29,576 bases of DNA from a virus: the IMG/VR virus record IMGVR_UViG_3300010153_000064, positions 1 through 29,576 of that record; one strand, 5' to 3'. Both the position numbers and the translations under genes were made by a program. This document shows positions 662 to 23,769 of this stretch, piece by piece; within the stretch, counting starts at the first letter, position 1; each line of letters starts with the position of its first letter. Under the pieces are notes generated by a model. It was not told the origin of the DNA, made no database searches, and saw nothing but the letters and a program-made list of their open reading frames with translations.

Positions 662-921
662 TGGACATTGTGCAAATAATTTCCGAGTTTGGTTTTCCTG
701 TAGTAATGGTCGTAGGGTTAGGGTATTTTGTATACTTTGTTTGGCAGACAATTACCAACAAAATTGATCCGGCTGTGCAAGAAATGAAGGTAACTATTAT
801 AAGATTAACTGATCAATTAAGGTTACTAGATCAAGATATGATAAGATTACAACAAAAAGTAAATACAGTACTAGAACTAAAAGAAGAAAATAGGTTAAAG
901 GATGATGAAGAAATTTTGTAG
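661..921 (+). CDS. small single-span membrane protein with coiled-coil tail (paralogue B)
   Basis: An 86-residue protein. MDIVQIISEFGFPVVM leads into one hydrophobic segment (about residues 13-30), then a predicted coiled coil (IIRLTDQLRLLDQDMIRLQQ) and an acidic end. Topology and motifs match the 98-residue protein at 199-495, so this looks like a local duplication with a third small membrane gene trapped between the copies. Its 3' end overlaps the start of csgF by 20 bases, tying it to the curli operon. It could be a holin, or an inner-membrane partner of the secretion system; the sequence does not decide. Confidence 0.78.
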   Translation: MDIVQIISEFGFPVVMVVGLGYFVYFVWQTITNKIDPAVQEMKVTIIRLTDQLRLLDQDMIRLQQKVNTVLELKEENRLKDDEEIL

Positions 922-1345
922 TGTTGTAGTGTTAATACTAAGTAGTTTAGTACATGCAGATGAATTATTGTTTAAATTTAAAAGTCCTAGCTTTTCAGGA
1001 ATAAATTCTTCTTCACATTACTTAACAATTGAAAACCAAGAAAATACTAGGCGCGGCACAATTAAACAAGAACGTGAAGCTGAGTTAGATGCTATAGAAC
1101 GTGAAGAAAACAACTCAACTTTAGCTAGGTTTATGAGAAATTTTGAATCTAGGGTGTATGCACAGTTAAGCAGACAATTGGTAGAACAACTTTTTGGAGA
1201 AAACCCAAGCACGGAGGGTAAATTAGAATTAGAGGGTAATTTAATAGAGTATGTAGTAGCAGAAGAGACTGTTACACTTACAATTACGGACGAAAATAAT
1301 GGTCAAACTACTATTACTATTCCTGTGGGGGACTTTACTTTCTAG
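902..1345 (+). CDS. csgF: CsgF-like curli assembly factor
   Basis: A 147-residue exported protein. A signal peptide (residues 1-19, cleavage after VHA) is followed by FKFKSPSFSG at 24-33, the counterpart of the FQFRNPNFGG segment at the mature N-terminus of E. coli CsgF, which plugs into the CsgG pore. A helical region (RFMRNFESRVYAQLS, 76-90) and a beta-rich end with GQTTITIPV match the rest of CsgF. In the known system CsgF caps the CsgG channel and couples secretion to fibre nucleation at the cell surface. Translation could start at either of two adjacent ATGs (902 or 905). It is followed by csgG, as in a minimal curli locus. No csgE- or csgD-like gene is visible. Confidence 0.93.
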   Translation: MMKKFCSVVVLILSSLVHADELLFKFKSPSFSGINSSSHYLTIENQENTRRGTIKQEREAELDAIEREENNSTLARFMRNFESRVYAQLSRQLVEQLFGENPSTEGKLELEGNLIEYVVAEETVTLTITDENNGQTTITIPVGDFTF

Positions 1346-2099
1346 TTGTGCGTCTAGAAATTTACTAGAAGGAAGTGGTATCCCTAATGTAATAATAAAA
1401 GATGCCTCTGTTCTGTCGTTACAATCAGAAGAATTAAGGGATATACTTCCAGCAAAGCGTAAACCTGTAATTGCTATTTATGCTAATAGCTTGCAAGACT
1501 TAACAGGCCAACGTAAAAGTAATGGTAGCTTTGCTATGTTTTCTACTGCTATTACACAAGCTCCCGAAGCATTTTTAATTCGTGCGTTAAAACATACTGC
1601 GAGCGGAAAATTTTTTAAAGTTACAGAAAGAGTTGGTTTAGATTCACTTACAAAAGAACGCCAGCTAATTCGCAGCACACGTGATAATTTTGATGAAGAA
1701 AGTAAATTAAAGCCTTTATTATTAGCGGGTTTGTTAATGCAAGGAGGAGTAATAGGCTATGATTCTAATACTTTTTCAGGAGGAGCAGGAGCTCGAATGT
1801 TAGGTATAGGAAGTTCAAAACAATATAGATCTGACTCAGTTAGTGTATCATTAAGATTGGTCAGTGTGTCTACAGGAGAAGTACTACTAGAAGTTCTTAC
1901 TTCAAAAAGTATTTTATCCGTTAGTCTTTCACAAGATGTGTTTAGATTTGTAGACATAAATGGTGCTAGTTTAATTGAAATGGAGGGAGGTATTACTGCA
2001 AACGAAAGCACCTCAATAGCTTTACAAAAAGCAATCGAAGCAGGAGTATTAGAAATGGTAAAAATAGGTATTAGAAAGGGGTATTGGGAATATGAATAA
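1299..2099 (+). CDS. csgG: CsgG-like outer-membrane curli secretion pore (lipoprotein)
   Basis: A 266-residue lipoprotein. A hydrophobic signal with lipobox LSSC gives lipidation at Cys17. Family blocks are clear: DLTGQRK (68-73), FSTAITQ (81-87), GVIGYDSN followed by GGAGARMLGIG (150-171), VSTGEVL (190-196), VFRFVDI (214-220), GYWEYE at the end. CsgG forms a nonameric outer-membrane barrel that exports curlin. Phe81 appears to be the counterpart of the pore-constriction Phe of E. coli CsgG, while the neighbouring Asn position looks like Met. The protein ends at the GxW motif and lacks the longer C-terminal tail of E. coli CsgG. The start is fixed by the need for the signal peptide, which is encoded inside the last 47 bases of csgF. 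Confidence 0.95.
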   Translation: MVKLLLLFLWGTLLSSCASRNLLEGSGIPNVIIKDASVLSLQSEELRDILPAKRKPVIAIYANSLQDLTGQRKSNGSFAMFSTAITQAPEAFLIRALKHTASGKFFKVTERVGLDSLTKERQLIRSTRDNFDEESKLKPLLLAGLLMQGGVIGYDSNTFSGGAGARMLGIGSSKQYRSDSVSVSLRLVSVSTGEVLLEVLTSKSILSVSLSQDVFRFVDINGASLIEMEGGITANESTSIALQKAIEAGVLEMVKIGIRKGYWEYE

Positions 2100-2823
2100 A
2101 ATTACTTGGTTGTTTATGTATACAACTACTTTAGCATATTTGTGTAGTGTGTACAGTTACGCAGCAGATAACGAAATATATGTAGACCAAGTAGGCACAA
2201 CTACGGTTAATATAGACCTTGAACAATTAGGAAGTGGGAACATTATAGGGGGTTTATTAGCGGCAGCTGGTTCTATGACGGCGCTTGATCTTGATGGAAC
2301 CTCAATGACTTTAGATATAAATCAAATTGGAGACACTAATAAATTCCTGGGGGATATGTATGCAGATACATACACTGGTTACTTTAACTTTGATGGTGAT
2401 ACCAACACGTTCACATCTAAAATGGATCCGACCAATGCGTTTGGCGCAGATGGTTCAAATGTTAATGTGCAAGTGACGGGAAATACTAATGCTATGACTC
2501 TTGATTTAGCAACAACTGCTTTAGCTAGTAGTACAGACCTTGATTGGACTATTAACGGAGCGAGTAATACAATTGACGTAGACATTGATGTAGATACAGC
2601 AACTCATTTTTTAGACATAGATGGGAGCAGTAATAATATAAATACAGATATGGACGGGTACGCAAACGGTTATTTTTATTTAGATCATACAGGGAACTCA
2701 AGGACATTTACAATTGATCAAGCAAGTACACAAGCTAGAGATTGGGTGCGTATTACTTCTAATGGTAACAATGGTACAGTTTGTGTTAACCAAAACGACC
2801 AGGGCACAAGTGTCGCTTGCTGA
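2092..2823 (+). CDS. curlin-like amyloid fibre subunit
   Basis: A 243-residue secreted protein with a signal peptide (residues 1-24, ending YSYA). The mature part is Asp/Asn/Thr/Gly-rich with short beta-strand repeats spaced by Gly-x-x-Asn turns: VDQVGTTTVNIDLEQLGSGN, LDINQIGDTNKF, VQVTGNTNAMTLDL, WTINGASNTIDVDI, LDIDGSSNNINTDM. The first units keep the curlin Q-x-G-x-x-N pattern and later ones are degenerate. The C-terminus has two Cys (NGTVCVNQ and a terminal Cys). It has no obvious Gly-rich N22-type targeting segment as in CsgA. Lying directly behind csgG with an 8-base overlap (ATGAATAA), it is the obvious cargo of the pore. It could be nucleator or major subunit. The SD-like AAAGGGG lies about 10 bases upstream. 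Confidence 0.82.
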   Translation: MNKITWLFMYTTTLAYLCSVYSYAADNEIYVDQVGTTTVNIDLEQLGSGNIIGGLLAAAGSMTALDLDGTSMTLDINQIGDTNKFLGDMYADTYTGYFNFDGDTNTFTSKMDPTNAFGADGSNVNVQVTGNTNAMTLDLATTALASSTDLDWTINGASNTIDVDIDVDTATHFLDIDGSSNNINTDMDGYANGYFYLDHTGNSRTFTIDQASTQARDWVRITSNGNNGTVCVNQNDQGTSVAC

Positions 2824-3844
2824 AGATATAGGAAGTATTACACAATTAAACGGTAATACTAGAGTAGTTAGAGACAAACCCTACGAAAGTGCAATCGACT
2901 TTTCGCTTAATTCTATGGACCGTTTAGAAACGGCTGCAGGTAGAATGGGTGTAACATTTCGAGACAACACTACGATACGTTTGACTGAAAACTCAAACGT
3001 GGTTATTGATTCTTTTATCTTTGATCCAGAACCAAATAAATCAAGTATGGCTCTTAATTTTGTAAAAGGAACTGGGAGGTTTATTAGTTCTAAAACAAAA
3101 CGTATACCAAAAGAAAATATTAAAATACGTACACATGCAGCCACCGTAGGGATTAGGGGTACGGACTTTACAATAACTGTAAAAGAAACAGGCGAAGCTC
3201 TTATAATTTTACTGCCAGATGAGTTTGGTAATAGTTCAGGAGAGATTTCTGTAACCACGGCCCTCGGTCAAGCAATATTAAATAAACCCTACGAAAGCAC
3301 AACTGTATATAATTTTGAAACCGCACCTACTACACCTGCTGTACTTAATTTAACGCTGGATATGATTGACAATATGTTGATTATTAATCCCCCTGAAACA
3401 AAAGAATTAGAAGTTAATGAAGATAAATCAGTAGCAGATAATTTACTTGATGTAGACTTTCTTGAGTTTGATGAATTAGAACAAGATGCTCTAGAAGAAG
3501 ATAACTTAGAGTATCAAGAGTTAGATATAGACTATTTAGCGGGTAATTTTTTAGAAGATTTGCTTGATGTTATACAAGAGATTGATGCTTTATCTAAGGC
3601 TGATAAAGCTTTAGGAGAGAGTGGTATACAAGGGACTGCAATAGGATACGATGCTGAAACACAGATTAGTACTTTTGTTAACGATACCGAAGCAAAGTTT
3701 ATAAGACAAATAGAGGACTCAGTACAAATGCAAGTTAATAAAAACGATTCTGTATCTATTGTTATTGAACAAGAAGGTAAGGTAAACAGAGTTTTAAATA
3801 ATGGAGGAACTTCCTCTCGTATTACAATAAGACAAGGCAGCTAA
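2714..3844 (+). CDS. exported FecR-domain protein with curlin-like C-terminal repeat
   Basis: 376 residues from a TTG start preceded by AAGGA; an in-frame ATG at 2762 is the alternative. A hydrophobic segment at about 12-25 followed by TRAQ suggests an export signal. Residues 38-156 form a FecR domain, with DIGSITQLNGNTRVVR at the front and the family-typical AATVGIRGTDF near its end. A long acidic Leu/Asp/Glu-rich segment (about 225-290) follows. The last 40 residues contain SIVIEQEGKVNRV and RITIRQGS, which fit the curlin pattern S-x4-Q-x-G-x-x-N. FecR domains are usually periplasmic. Here the protein may bind or nucleate the fibre (inference). It overlaps the curlin gene by 110 bases in another frame. 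Confidence 0.83.
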   Translation: MIKQVHKLEIGCVLLLMVTMVQFVLTKTTRAQVSLAEDIGSITQLNGNTRVVRDKPYESAIDFSLNSMDRLETAAGRMGVTFRDNTTIRLTENSNVVIDSFIFDPEPNKSSMALNFVKGTGRFISSKTKRIPKENIKIRTHAATVGIRGTDFTITVKETGEALIILLPDEFGNSSGEISVTTALGQAILNKPYESTTVYNFETAPTTPAVLNLTLDMIDNMLIINPPETKELEVNEDKSVADNLLDVDFLEFDELEQDALEEDNLEYQELDIDYLAGNFLEDLLDVIQEIDALSKADKALGESGIQGTAIGYDAETQISTFVNDTEAKFIRQIEDSVQMQVNKNDSVSIVIEQEGKVNRVLNNGGTSSRITIRQGS

Positions 3845-8824: not shown

Positions 8825-11308
8825 TTAATGTGCAGTTTTCCTGTTTATAAGTTCCATATCTTTGGCATCAAAATGTTCTAACGCTAAAGACTCTTGTAGT
8901 TCTTCACTTAAGACCCAAGTCAAAAAGACTCCTCGAGGGGCAGAACGATTTTCACCTTCACCCATTCTCTTACGAGTAGTTTGTATATTTAATCTACTCA
9001 TGGCTTTTGTAAAGTCCCGTACTGATAATGTTTTACGATTATCTGTTAATACATCATACACTAATTTGAAGTGTTGCATAGGGATAACCATTTCTTGTCC
9101 TACTGAAGCTACCCAGTTTTTAAGATATCGTTGTGCTGTACTTATGCCACCAGCGTCAAAAGTGTTTGTAAGTGGGATATCTAAAATCTCAATAAAGTAT
9201 TCTAAGTTGTTTAATTTAATAGCATTTGCAAATTCTTCTAATACCGACATTGAAACTAACTTCATGTTTTTCTTAGCATCGTTGTCTAACGCAGTGTGAG
9301 CCATGCGTTCATCAACTTTAAAGTTTTTTAACAGTCCAGAAAATGTATACAATTCTTTTTCTAATGTGTCTAACTTTGTAAGCAATTCAGGCATAGTTTT
9401 ATCTAGCTTACGTTCTTGCCTGGGAGCTACGTTGTAACGTCTGTCTCCATCTTCTATTTTAACTGCATCCGCTCGGTTTGTTAGAAAAATAAAATTACAA
9501 TAACTAGGCAGTTCAACTTGATTTGTGCGCATTGCACGTACTGTTAGAGTAGGTTCTGTAATCTGATGTTTAAGTTTATCTGCCATTCGTCCTATGTTTC
9601 CAGAGTCACCCATACGAAACTCATCTACTACTAAAAACAAAGCAGTACGCATGTATAAGTTATATTGCTCCTCTATGTTTTCTAAAGCTCGCATTGGAAC
9701 TTGAGCTTCGCCGAATAAAGGCTTAAGTATTTTATGTACAAACAGGCCCTTACCAGTTCCAGGTACGCCCGTAAATATCCATGCCGTCATAGTCTTACGT
9801 TTGTTTTGGTATATATAAGCTAACCAATTTATAAAGTGTTCTACTTCGGTTGTACCATTTCCTAGAATTTGCTTTAAGAGTTTGTAAGTAAAAGGTATGT
9901 GATTTTCAAATACTTGAGTTTCACCATATTCTACTTCTGGCAACTCTGTAGCTGGCTTTAACATGTAAGGCGTTTTTCTAAATAGATTTACATAGTACGG
10001 AGCTTTGTCCATTTGCATACCTACATCTGAAGCAGGATTAAATACTACTTGTGCATCAGCTACAAAGTCCGGCATAGGACGATTGTGAGTACGCATAAAA
10101 CCTTCTAAGGATCCTTTTTGCGTAGGCATTAAAGGAAAGTCATCAGTAAACTGTTCTTTGTTTTTATCAAAAATACCATTGTAAAAAGTATCTGTGTAGT
10201 AATCACGTAGAACTATTGGTCTAAGGTCTTTACCTCCTTCCATTTCTTTTGCAAAGACCTCGAAGATGCTTTTGTAAAAGTCTGGATCGGCTTTTTGTAT
10301 TTCAAATACAGGCTCACCTTTAAAATTGTACATATAGTGAGGGTTGGTAAGAATAAAGTAATAGGCACCGCTATCTCCTCCATTAATATTACAGTTAACA
10401 TAAGGCTCACTTACCCTACAGATTTCTATTGTCATCCGGTCTGGGTTTTGCAGAACCTCTTGAGATTCGCCTCCGATATTAACTGTTGTAATACGTTCGC
10501 GTTTCTTTGTAAGGCCTGCTCGTTTACGTAAGCCATCTTTTATTTGTACTCCTACGCTGTGAACTTTCTCTGGATTAACATCCTTAAGCAAATTGCTAAG
10601 GTCCACGGTCGGTTCACCACGAGTAATACATACAAATCTTTCACCAGCTATAGGGTCTTGTGCACCCCCTACAAATTTAGGTGGCGCGATATAAATAAGT
10701 TTAGAGTTATCTGCTAAGCTAACATCTAAAGGAAAAGCAATACTTTGTCCGTTAGCAGATAAGTTTAACTGATTAGCTAAAAAATCTATTTCATAGTTTA
10801 AAGTTCTAAACCATTCTTTTAATACTTTTGGATACACTGGATATTTAAGTAAAAAGAATAAATGCATTGATACTTTATTGCCTTTCATACCTAAAGAAGC
10901 AGACGCTTGTGCAATGTAACTAACATCTTGAAATTCAGCTGGCATGTAAGTAACAAACTGCTCAGCAATAGTTTGTATGTCAAAAGTATTTAAAGTGGAC
11001 TTAGATGAAGCTATTGGAAACTCAACTCCATCTAAATCTAAAACCAATAAATTAGTTTGTGCTACACGATCCGTCATCATTGCACGAGATTCGTTTTTTA
11101 GTTTCTTTTTAAGTAATCCTTTATGTAACGCCGCACCTGTTTGTGCGTATTTAAGTAAAAGATTATAAAATTCAGTAAAACCTTCAGGTGTTTTATCAAA
11201 GTTATGATGATGTGAAGTAAAGTTTTTAGCTAATGGATAAGGCTTTTTGCCTTGTAGTGATATTTCTTTTATTAATTTTTGTTTCGCTTTGAGGAAGACG
11301 ACTTCCAT
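8825..11308 (-). CDS. primase-helicase: AEP-like primase with SF3/DUF5906 helicase
   Basis: 827 residues. The N-terminal part resembles an archaeo-eukaryotic primase: VLDLDGVEF gives the D-x-D of motif I (91 and 93), and VSMHLFF gives the S-x-H of motif II (147-149). The C-terminal half is a D5/DUF5906-type helicase with Walker A GVPGTGKG (514-521), Walker B LVVDEFR (559-565) and sensor FIFLTNRADAV (606-616). Such fusions make primers and unwind the fork, standing in for DnaG plus DnaB. Start supported by GGGGAG eleven bases before the ATG. Together with PolA and the probable SSB it makes a near-complete phage replisome. Confidence 0.9.
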   Translation of the reverse strand: MEVVFLKAKQKLIKEISLQGKKPYPLAKNFTSHHHNFDKTPEGFTEFYNLLLKYAQTGAALHKGLLKKKLKNESRAMMTDRVAQTNLLVLDLDGVEFPIASSKSTLNTFDIQTIAEQFVTYMPAEFQDVSYIAQASASLGMKGNKVSMHLFFLLKYPVYPKVLKEWFRTLNYEIDFLANQLNLSANGQSIAFPLDVSLADNSKLIYIAPPKFVGGAQDPIAGERFVCITRGEPTVDLSNLLKDVNPEKVHSVGVQIKDGLRKRAGLTKKRERITTVNIGGESQEVLQNPDRMTIEICRVSEPYVNCNINGGDSGAYYFILTNPHYMYNFKGEPVFEIQKADPDFYKSIFEVFAKEMEGGKDLRPIVLRDYYTDTFYNGIFDKNKEQFTDDFPLMPTQKGSLEGFMRTHNRPMPDFVADAQVVFNPASDVGMQMDKAPYYVNLFRKTPYMLKPATELPEVEYGETQVFENHIPFTYKLLKQILGNGTTEVEHFINWLAYIYQNKRKTMTAWIFTGVPGTGKGLFVHKILKPLFGEAQVPMRALENIEEQYNLYMRTALFLVVDEFRMGDSGNIGRMADKLKHQITEPTLTVRAMRTNQVELPSYCNFIFLTNRADAVKIEDGDRRYNVAPRQERKLDKTMPELLTKLDTLEKELYTFSGLLKNFKVDERMAHTALDNDAKKNMKLVSMSVLEEFANAIKLNNLEYFIEILDIPLTNTFDAGGISTAQRYLKNWVASVGQEMVIPMQHFKLVYDVLTDNRKTLSVRDFTKAMSRLNIQTTRKRMGEGENRSAPRGVFLTWVLSEELQESLALEHFDAKDMELINRKTAH

Positions 11309-11330: not shown

Positions 11331-11516
11331 TTAATTTTTTTTGTCATATAGTTCTTTACGGTCTATTTTTATGTCAGAGTCAGCTTCAAAAGCCAACTTG
11401 ACTTGTTTATTTCCCAATGAAGTTATAACTATTTTGCAGAATATTTCATCTGGCTTACCGTCTTTATAAAGAACAATAGACTCGTGTTTTTTACGTGTAA
11501 GTATTAAATTGCTCAT
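11331..11516 (-). CDS. CsrA/RsmA-like RNA-binding regulator
   Basis: 61 residues. LILTRKKHESIVL (4-16) matches the LILTRRVGETLMI opening of CsrA, ILVITSLG-type strands follow (KIVITSLGNKQVKLAFEA), and IDRKELYDKK aligns with the VHREEIYQRI helix containing the RNA-contacting Arg. An insertion of a few residues (KDGKPDEIF) lengthens the loop between strands 1 and 2. CsrA dimers bind GGA motifs near ribosome sites and block or stabilise mRNA. Here it may change host or phage translation during infection (inference). It is sandwiched between polymerase and primase genes with a TAATG junction to polA, so it is expressed with the replisome. Confidence 0.85.
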   Translation of the reverse strand: MSNLILTRKKHESIVLYKDGKPDEIFCKIVITSLGNKQVKLAFEADSDIKIDRKELYDKKN

Positions 11517-16621: not shown

Positions 16622-17723
16622 AAGGAGCCTCCGTGGCTTCTGTTGTAACCCATAACACAGGATAATCAGGTTGTTCACCAAAATCCCATGCTTCTAGATC
16701 TGTTAGATAAACTAATGCACATACATTAGGATATTTTTTATTTACATAATCAATAGCTGGCCCAAACGCAGTACCACCACCACCACCGTATTTTACTTTA
16801 AGAGGTAAGTCCTCACGGGTGTATGTAGTATCGTCATGGACTTCAGTATCGCATTGTATAAATCGAACTAACTCAGGATTTAAGTCATGTAAGATACTGG
16901 TAATTTCACCAGTAAACTGTTCGAGATACTCACGGCATGATCCAGAAGAATCACCAACTATAGCGATCTCACCTAACGAAGGATTATATAGTGAAGGTAA
17001 GTACATACCTTGTGCAATAAACCTACGATTGGGTTTAGCCCATGAAAAGTCAGACTTGTTGTTGGCACGTAAAAATCTAGCAAGTACCATTTTCCAATCG
17101 ACTTTAGGAGCTAAAGCTTTTTCTACTAACTCTTGCATGTGTCCTGGTAATTTACCTACACCCTTAGCTACTTCAGCAGCTTGTTGTATAGCTATATTAG
17201 TATCAGCTTCAAATTTACCAGTACCTGAACCTTCGGCTAACGATTCATGGTCGATCACTCCACCGCAACCACCAGGATCAAATCCTTCTAGTAGTGCTAC
17301 ACCAGATATAGGATCATCACCTAGATCTTTAGGCAGTTTGTTATACACATCTTCGGTGCTATGATCTTCGTATTGTTCATCATATAGCTCACCATGCGGT
17401 AGTATAAGACCACACTTTCTGAGAGCTAAGTTGATGACATAATCACCGGCAATGTTCCACCGTTTGGGATCGCGTTCCATACGGCGTAACATATGCAGTA
17501 GCACAACATGCATTACTTCGTGAGCTATAAGCCCAACACGTTGTGCTTCGGTAAGTTTAAGAAACCATTTAGGATTAAACTTAATGTACTGCCCGTTAGT
17601 ACAGGCAGTTTCAATAGTCTCATCTTCAATAGGTGTCAAACGTAACGCTAGAGTACCAAAGAAAGGCTGATCTAAAATTAGACGAGCACGAGCTTTGGTA
17701 TAAGCTTGCATTGCTTCGGACAT
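16599..17723 (-). CDS. metallopeptidase-like/VWA-domain protein (DUF2201 type)
   Basis: 374 residues with two modules. The N-terminal module has an intact zinc-peptidase motif HEVMH (68-72) followed by WNIAGDYVINLAL, the usual downstream Asp. The C-terminal module is von Willebrand A-like, with the MIDAS sequence DSSGS (258-262), GGGGGT (313-318) and YLTDLEAWD (339-347). Bacterial proteins of this plan (DUF2201) pair with MoxR-type AAA+ ATPases; such a gene lies at 18586-19602 with one gene in between. The pair may act as a chaperone/remodelling machine on a metal-dependent complex (inference). Ends inside a cluster of small membrane genes. Confidence 0.88.
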   Translation of the reverse strand: MSEAMQAYTKARARLILDQPFFGTLALRLTPIEDETIETACTNGQYIKFNPKWFLKLTEAQRVGLIAHEVMHVVLLHMLRRMERDPKRWNIAGDYVINLALRKCGLILPHGELYDEQYEDHSTEDVYNKLPKDLGDDPISGVALLEGFDPGGCGGVIDHESLAEGSGTGKFEADTNIAIQQAAEVAKGVGKLPGHMQELVEKALAPKVDWKMVLARFLRANNKSDFSWAKPNRRFIAQGMYLPSLYNPSLGEIAIVGDSSGSCREYLEQFTGEITSILHDLNPELVRFIQCDTEVHDDTTYTREDLPLKVKYGGGGGTAFGPAIDYVNKKYPNVCALVYLTDLEAWDFGEQPDYPVLWVTTEATEAPYGEIVQM

Positions 17724-21912: not shown

Positions 21913-21928
21913 AACTTTTACCTTGTAG

Positions 21929-21971
21929 TTGATTAAAAACACTTGAAATAATATTTACGAGCTTGCTCGTG
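21929..21971 (-). promoter_or_regulatory. repeated leader/promoter element, copy 2
   Basis: Minus strand: CACGAG-CAAG-CTCGTA hairpin (21971-21956), then AATATTATTTCAAGTGTTTT and TAATCAAC, ending about 17 bases before the ATG of the SLOG gene (21912). The hairpin overlaps the last codons of the gene upstream. The outer stem pair is a G-U here. Confidence 0.65.
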
Positions 21972-22167
21972 CATTGGTAGGATCAAATCTATCTTCTAAC
22001 CCATAAGTATCTATCGCACACTTCAACGCTTTATAGTGCGGGCTGAAGATACGAGCTTTAACATAAGAAAATATAAAACCTCGATAGTCGTTATATTGAG
22101 AAATATAAGCAGACTGCCAAGCATATAAACTTTGGTCTAAAAAACAATAATAGATTAACTTAAACAT
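21955..22167 (-). CDS. aromatic-rich hypothetical protein
   Basis: 70 residues: MFKLIYYCFLDQSLYAWQSA, then YISQYNDYRGFIFSYVKARI and FSPHYKALKCAIDTYGLEDR. Unusually rich in Tyr and Phe, with a hydrophobic N-terminus but too polar for a clear membrane span. The final codons are part of the hairpin of the next leader element. Two bases separate it from the stop of the 41-residue gene. Function unknown. Confidence 0.66.
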   Translation of the reverse strand: MFKLIYYCFLDQSLYAWQSAYISQYNDYRGFIFSYVKARIFSPHYKALKCAIDTYGLEDRFDPTNARASS

Positions 22168-22295: not shown

Positions 22296-22312
22296 ACGTA
22301 AGTCCTTGATTT

Positions 22313-22355
22313 ATAGTTAAAAACATTAGAAATAATACTTACAAGCTTGTCTTGT
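22313..22355 (-). promoter_or_regulatory. repeated leader/promoter element, copy 3
   Basis: Minus strand: ACAAG-ACAAG-CTTGT hairpin (22355-22341), then AAGTATTATTTCTAATGTTT and TTAACTATAAAT, ahead of the 41-residue gene (ATG at 22295). The stem is five pairs, weaker than the other copies. The element directly abuts the first repeat of the TGGTACAG array at 22357. Confidence 0.6.
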
Positions 22356-22356
22356 C

Positions 22357-22694
22357 CTGTACCAGCACTTAGGAAGTAGTGGTACAGGGGTAAGTAACTG
22401 ATATATATAGAGAATATAAATAGCTGTACCAGCAACATAAATGAAGTGGTACAGGCTGAGTTCCTTTCTGAGAGAAGCTTAGGGGTGAATCTGTACCAAC
22501 TGTACCAGTAAAATAAGAAACTGAACTAATAAAAACGAACCATGAACCACGGTTGATTAATATAAGCTGTTAGATTTTAGCGGTACAGTTGGTACAACGG
22601 GGGTTGCACGCTACGAAAGCCACGAACCACGGTCGGTCTAGCTGTACCAGTACGGTGTAAAACAAGTGGTACACACGTGGTACAGTCGGTACAG
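22357..22694. repeat. array of twelve TGGTACAG/CTGTACCA repeats, candidate origin or operator
   Basis: Copies of CTGTACCA or its complement (first base may be C for T) start at 22357, 22380, 22424, 22447, 22491, 22500, 22581, 22590, 22642, 22667, 22678 and 22687. The first two pairs are inverted repeats with identical 15-base spacers in length and are 67 bases apart; three later pairs are direct repeats nine bases apart. A separate ten-base direct repeat, GAACCACGGT, occurs at 22544 and 22624, and a very AT-rich run lies at 22399-22423. Iteron-like arrays next to AT-rich DNA are typical of replication origins, but repeated operators for a phage repressor look the same. No gene is visible in 22296-22861. 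Confidence 0.75.
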
Positions 22695-22814
22695 TAGAGC
22701 CGACCTTCGCTCGTAGCGGACGCACGCGCACGCAACTTCACCGAAGAATCATCAAACAAGTTGATGATAGTAGTGCAATGATAGTAGCACGCACACTACG
22801 AGCCCCACCTTGGT
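22695..22814. other. GC-rich gene-free segment with an eight-pair hairpin
   Basis: This part of the gap is GC-rich (repeated ACGCACGCGCACG-like sequence near 22720-22733). It holds a perfect hairpin ATCATCAA-ACAAG-TTGATGAT at 22748-22768, then TGATAGTAG twice. The loop ACAAG equals that of leader element copy 3, but on the opposite strand. No convincing gene: the minus frame here codes a Cys/Arg-rich peptide with no ribosome site and an unlikely composition. It may belong to the origin/operator region. Confidence 0.4.
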
Positions 22815-22848
22815 AAAAAAAACCCCGATACCCTTTCGGATACCGGGG
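22815..22848 (-). terminator. rho-independent terminator
   Basis: On the minus strand a stem with five outer CCCCG/CGGGG pairs and further inner pairs around GAAA is followed by eight T. It lies 13 bases after the stop of the 106-residue gene at 22862 and closes the two-gene transcript from 23550, keeping it out of the repeat array. Confidence 0.87.
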
Positions 22849-23550: not shown

Positions 23551-23569
23551 ATATGATCTCCTTTGATCG

Positions 23570-23613
23570 TTAGTTATAAACACTTAGAATAATACTCACG
23601 AGTCTTGCTCGTG
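23570..23613 (-). promoter_or_regulatory. repeated leader/promoter element, copy 4
   Basis: Minus strand: CACGAG-CAAGA-CTCGTG hairpin (23613-23597), then AGTATTATTCTAAGTGTTTA and TAACTAACG, followed by AAAGGAG and the ATG at 23550. Here the element is not downstream of any minus-strand gene, so it must serve initiation or leader function rather than termination of an upstream gene. Confidence 0.68.
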
Positions 23614-23769
23614 AATTTTGAACAAGGTTCCAAGGGTAAATTTTAGGAAACAAGGTTCCAGACAGGCAATCGGGGATTGGGGTGGTGATTGGTGGTGATA
23701 GTAGGACCCTGCCTCCGCGGTAGTCTGAAAATATTTCTATAAAAAATTTCTACAAAAAAATTTCCCAAG
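23614..23769. repeat. divergent intergenic region with direct repeats, G-rich tract and A-tracts
   Basis: Between the minus-strand early genes and the plus-strand terminase genes. A 12-base direct repeat AACAAGGTTCCA occurs at 23621-23632 and 23649-23660. A G-rich tract at 23672-23697 alternates GGGG and GG runs and could fold as a two-layer G-quadruplex. Three phased ATTTC plus A-run units (from about 23733, 23746, 23760) suggest bent DNA. Its place just before the small terminase gene makes it a candidate packaging (pac/cos) or late-promoter region; no direct proof. Confidence 0.45.

Follow-up and report, generated by a model that had tools for sequence, protein, structure and literature searches.

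Clustered initiator sites beside an AT-rich region are a common plan for replication origins. They are found in iteron plasmids, in the lambda O system and at DnaA/oriC origins; there, initiators unrelated to the candidate discussed below act on DnaA boxes or on direct repeats some 18-22 bp long. Satellite phage P4 offers a different version: its record carries an annotated ori and crr with 8-bp type 1 repeats, and it encodes a primase with an SF3 helicase. In PICIs, the origin has an AT-rich region between two groups of iterons and adjoins the primase-Rep gene (PMC6092414). Lastly, the primase-polymerase of Nitratiruptor phage NrS-1 starts primers in vitro at TTTGGTTA and at GTG(G/A), reading single-stranded templates via its helix-bundle domain, and the study proposes that the start of genome replication may be set by TTTGGTTA (PMC8718748).

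The DNA analysed here (the window) is the 29,576-base record of an uncultivated marine phage, to which no near-identical phage record could be matched. Between its small-terminase gene (terS) and a leftward early operon, where transcription directions diverge, a first sequence-only reading had described twelve near-identical eight-base units in both orientations. The array proved to be real: 12 sites at most one mismatch away from TGGTACAG lie in 22357-22694, 8 of them exact, while 300 first-order shuffles yielded at most 2 exact sites per 338-bp span. Over the whole window, 49 sites within one mismatch were counted, compared to 21.7 +/- 4.4 expected. Two inverted pairs with equal spacers (15 bases) and three 9-base-phased tandem pairs (22491/22500, 22581/22590 and 22678/22687) were present as described, and the stretch, reported as gene-free, holds no credible gene, its sole listed ORF (60 aa, TTG start, 22577-22759) being unconvincing. 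Beyond that description, the array is bipartite around a 73-bp AT-rich core, and its 8-bp sites stand in inverted tandem pairs instead of the direct repeats or DnaA boxes of iteron plasmid, lambda O and oriC origins. Its parts are the following.

22357-22694, both orientations: whole 12-site iteron array (TGGTACAG)
22357-22387: inverted pair 1, CTGTACCA-N15-TGGTACAG, sites at 22357 and 22380; same spacing in relatives L006, L007 and L008
22424-22454: inverted pair 2, sites at 22424 and 22447, 67 bp from pair 1
22491-22507, minus strand: 9-bp tandem pair, one arm around the core
22508-22580: AT-rich core of 73 bp, 29% GC, between the inverted tandem pairs; candidate strand-opening region
22537-22554, minus strand: non-iteron core element AACCGTGGTTCATGGTTC, a variant of the clade consensus GACCgtgGACCntnGtTAtt
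22581-22597, plus strand: opposite arm around the core, a 9-bp tandem pair in inverted orientation to that at 22491-22507
22642-22694: outer module, one minus-strand and three plus-strand sites, with steps of 25, 11 and 9 bp

The likeness to P4 is one of layout. Both have 8-bp sites in the two orientations, tandem steps of 9-11 bp and an inverted copy at about 22-25 bp. The P4 ori reads >>><>> with steps of 10, 11, 22, 43 and 10 bp, against 9, 11, 25, 52 and 9 in the window, and its type I repeats (steps of 22, 11 and 10 bp) share the topology of the outer module. P4 alpha, like the candidate initiator of the window, combines a primase with an SF3 helicase, and its origin-binding domain is a winged helix (1ka8), whereas the counterpart in the window is a predicted one. 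P4 differs by its motif, GGTGAACA, and by having a separate ori and crr where the window has one array with a fixed core; the window phage, unlike P4, encodes its own family-A polymerase. P4 alpha was rejected as a sequence homologue: its profile match to the window primase (hhalign) was not significant, and 1ka8 matched the model of the C-terminal domain at a Z of only 3.2. Given this lack of significant sequence similarity between the initiators, the array is not filed as a P4 homologue. The PICI/SaPI origins, compared by layout and not by initiator sequence, share with it the two iteron sets around an AT-rich region, an arrangement found in 86 of the 93 marine arrays described below. They lie directly 3' of the rep gene, whereas the window array (22.4-22.7 kb) is 11 kb away from the primase gene (8.8-11.3 kb), and PICIs are satellites, whereas the window is a phage. 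By this comparison the layout is of a known kind, and the array most likely works like the P4 and PICI origins.

Conservation was analysed on 229 sequences (fetched loci, six longer records and the window), which fell into 146 groups; the array was present in 93 of these, a count that depends on whether metagenomic contigs reach the array place. All 93 non-redundant marine records covering the syntenic place carry an array of 9 to 16 sites, and every group with 3.5 kb or more of sequence upstream of the AAA gene had one. The sequence-only reading had staked its own refutation on the conservation of the repeats in relatives: there they sit at the same place and with the same geometry, with a co-drifting motif. 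In relatives at ~65% polymerase identity TGGTACAG is absent, and a de novo repeat search at the syntenic place uncovered other 8-mers in the same layout. Five motif classes were recognised, TGGAACCA, TGGTACAC, TGGAACAT, TGGTACAG and TGTAACAT, all with one common layout; the TGGTACTT clusters of L078 and L079, short and of 7 sites only, were left out. In 86 of the 93 arrays, outward-pointing tandem pairs with steps of 8-9 bp enclose a core spacer of 66-77 bp (median 76; mean GC 36%, that is 64% A+T). The core element GACCgtgGACCntnGtTAtt (GACCgtgGACC...GTTAtt) is conserved across all iteron motif classes. Motif turnover within a frozen geometry is the trace expected of a binding protein co-evolving with its sites. 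As a predicted origin of a known kind, the marine array is unusual for its clean geometry and for this turnover.

Partition or anchoring systems also use arrays of short sites in both orientations. A centromere-like array of this type, or one bound by a host protein, is a most unlikely explanation here: no partition protein was found among the window proteins scanned, and a conserved host binder is disfavoured because the motif changes along with the phage even between close relatives.

The relatives L006, L007 and L008 (83-85% polymerase identity) keep the array and its spacing, while the flanking genes and the leader differ. This bears on the second proposal of the sequence-only reading, a multi-site operator for the early genes, considered here as an operator or enhancer on which a phage DNA-binding regulator would control the leftward early operon. 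The position suits such a role, as the array immediately precedes the first small early ORF of the operon, which starts at ~22.3 kb, and is downstream of a terminator; moreover the inverted pairs resemble dimer sites, and a regulator and its sites would likewise drift together. But in these three relatives the array is kept while the downstream leader and genes change, and repression needs neither a conserved core element nor a fixed 76-bp distance. A sigma-70 promoter scan of a 2-kb region, covering this promoter type only, returned 8 promoter-like matches against 5.9 expected, which is near chance, and none that was credible within the array. As a side result, CTACTATCA, considered as a genome-wide promoter motif, was discarded, being no more frequent than expected by chance.

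Arrays of comparable layout were found in cultured phages. The Kochitakasuvirus phages KPP25 (a Pseudomonas phage) and phiR18 have homologues of the window's primase (hhalign 100% over residues 1-703 of the profile), polymerase, terminase and portal, and carry TCGTAACA arrays in which outward-pointing pairs again flank an AT-rich spacer. They differ from the window by this motif and by a spacer of 117 bp, and KPP25 has a second array. The latter, at ~58.26-58.54 kb (L185:39484-39769), is unannotated and stands between two late genes; it is possible that it is a second origin. In the early region of KPP25 (L185:11208-11350) we also noted ~16 head-to-tail 9-bp repeats (CAGCCCAGC).

In NrS-1 (L250), 11 GTGTAACC-like sites were found at 17061-17378, unannotated, directly behind the primase gene and directly upstream of terS. 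TTTGGTTA, the priming template, has a single copy in the NrS-1 genome, at 17198, within this array. The primase/SF3 helicase of NrS-1 is homologous to that of the window (E 5e-30 to 6k9e), and its array resembles the window's by having sites in both orientations and an AT-rich gap, with GTGTAACC nearly the same sequence as the TGTAACAT iterons of some marine relatives. Its spacing is looser than in the window (steps of 12-22 bp), and it is placed right behind the primase gene, compared to 11 kb away. Moraxella phage Mcat9 has ACCCTTCACAC repeats arranged as << ... >>>, also behind the primase gene. When the window proteins were searched against these phages by tblastn, the primase, from the SF3 domain onward, was the sole match in NrS-1 and Mcat9. 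Stenotrophomonas phage Suzuki has an array behind its primase, near the predicted cos. On the negative side, phiA008 has a primase that aligns over 84% of the query, yet no array in the searched 94% of its genome, and the fetched genome parts of Rollin and KT1 showed none either. An array thus accompanies a primase-helicase of this type in most but not all phages examined, a set that contains no systematic primase-less controls. The records of KPP25, phiR18 and NrS-1 carry no annotated origin. For the operator, these phages add two difficulties: KPP25 has a full second array flanked by late genes, and in NrS-1 and Mcat9 the array stands behind the primase gene. We conclude that the operator, which fits the conserved core and these locations worse than an origin does, is unlikely.

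We also considered that the array might serve to initiate packaging, as a pac or cosB-like site to which the small terminase subunit binds. The array is ~1.1 kb from terS in the window and directly upstream of it in NrS-1, that of Suzuki is near a predicted cos, and ten truncated contigs (L007, L018, L065, L074, L116, L149, L154 and others) begin at most ~70 bp from the array edge. These ends scatter at the array, however, and most contigs run through it, so that a fixed physical genome end at this place was rejected. TerS was rejected as the binder too: its helix-turn-helix-like stretch is essentially identical across the motif classes, and 0 of 173 terS columns separated the classes exclusively in three ways. 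Finally, arrays of such kind in P4 are annotated as ori and crr. The packaging site is thus quite unlikely, and like the operator it is less likely than an origin. Independently of this question, contig starts at the array edge exceed the general density of contig ends, at variable positions; they may reflect a recombination junction between the conserved array and its variable flanks.

We then looked for residues that follow the motif. Trees of the primase, the polymerase and the AAA protein indicated that the motif changed several times, convergent cases included: L068 has TGGTACAC inside the TGGAACCA clade, and L122 has TGGAACCA among TGTAACAT and TGGAACAT relatives. Among ~5,600 alignment columns from 19 proteins, three separate the motif classes three ways, and of these only the column of primase residue 264 (A / M,N,S / L) includes both convergent records, L068 and L122, and agrees with both. 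Another primase residue, 790 (A versus I/V/T), tracks base 4 of the motif. The features concerned are these.

8825-11308, minus strand: candidate initiator, an AEP-type primase with SF3 helicase (DUF5906) and C-terminal winged helix (phrog_24712)
10517-10519, minus strand: codon for A264 of the primase, a residue that follows the iteron class
8939-8941, minus strand: codon for A790 of the primase, a residue of the predicted winged-helix wing that follows iteron base 4

The column of residue 264 taken alone gives p = 0.002 (cluster-permutation null), a value that fails correction over the ~500 variable primase columns, and for this reason the covariation is only suggestive; as such, it points to the primase as the binder. 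The C-terminal domain, for which Pfam returned nothing, was modelled as a winged helix (pLDDT ~72), with residue 790 in the predicted wing. Its best structural match was the NrS-1 Tail (Z 7.2, a middling value; 94 residues, rmsd 3.2). Foldseek alone gave no E below 0.1. The model of the full-length primase was poor (pLDDT 58).

By domain order, the helix-bundle domain is expected at the position of residue 264, immediately after the primase core. Given that the NrS-1 enzyme reads TTTGGTTA and GTG(G/A) single-stranded through that domain, the sites might be single-strand priming sites instead of duplex sites of an initiator. Priming, however, needs neither the strict 8-9 bp phasing nor a fixed core of 66-77 bp with sites in both orientations; such tandem phasing and such a core suggest complexes assembled on duplex DNA, and an array made for priming only seems very unlikely.

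Taken together, the conservation in relatives and the comparable arrays of KPP25, NrS-1, Mcat9 and P4 make an origin bound by a phage initiator, the first proposal of the sequence-only reading, the best supported explanation: the array is probably the DNA replication origin of the phage, of the iteron type, bound by its primase/SF3 helicase. Three points of this reading are inferences: binding by the primase, melting of the core, and a replication start at the array. The primase-helicase would bind the 8-bp sites, those of the outer modules included, and copies of it on the outward-pointing tandem pairs would flank the AT-rich core on both sides and open it. Two SF3 helicase rings would then be loaded, one per strand, making replication probably bidirectional. 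The same protein would make the primers, to be extended by the family-A DNA polymerase of the phage. The conserved core element, a sequence similar to the GTGG/TGGTTA templates of the NrS-1 enzyme, would perhaps be the place of priming. The array could also repress the neighbouring early promoter, which is compatible with its role as an origin.

A further, rather doubtful idea is that in NrS-1-type replicons the same short sequence is both a duplex iteron and a single-stranded priming template for the helix-bundle domain, its sequence drifting with residues 264 and 790 while the nucleoprotein geometry stays frozen. If true, one sequence would serve both origin opening and primer start in these replicons. 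For the choice of start sites by NrS-1-type primase-polymerases, the array gives a concrete site that can be tested in cultured phages. The marine group itself is uncultured, and supplies ~100 natural iteron-initiator pairs with a changed site; it is therefore a good system for studying how the specificities of initiator and origin change jointly.

The surroundings of the array fit two divergent blocks. From 23.8 kb onward, the plus strand holds the terminase and portal genes. The minus strand encodes the family-A DNA polymerase, the AEP-type primase with SF3 helicase, a SNF2-like helicase, a RecB-like exonuclease, a CsrA-like protein and an AAA ATPase adjoining a metallopeptidase/VWA protein. 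GC skew, which has a minimum near the array, was discarded as evidence for an origin, because gene direction changes at the array; the signal is confounded by gene orientation, and it was inconsistent between records. No tRNA or known RNA family was detected. Two hairpins stand on the right of the array.

22744-22773 (to 22790), minus strand: CTACTATCATCA and hairpin beside the array, z -4.5; similar sequence at the same place in relatives
22823-22848, minus strand: intrinsic-terminator-like hairpin, which ends the upstream minus-strand unit and isolates the array on its right

In the CTACTATCATCA hairpin, some 80 bp outside the array, stem letters vary among relatives while pairing is kept, and CTACTATCATCA with its hairpin may be part of the origin. 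A leader-like element, made of a hairpin such as ACGAGCAAGCTCGT followed by AAgTATTATTTnTAAtGTTTtTAA, is present in three minus-strand copies upstream of early genes (21922-21975, 22306-22345 and 23563-23617); L007 and L008 have a different GC-rich hairpin at the leader place. The gene of the CsrA-like protein (11331-11516), between the polymerase and primase genes, is conserved across the clade. At the left end of the window, curli-type genes (902-3844), of a kind reported in marine phages, encode CsgF (Pfam E 4.5e-19) and CsgG (E 1.9e-45), together with a repeat protein and a FecR-domain protein.
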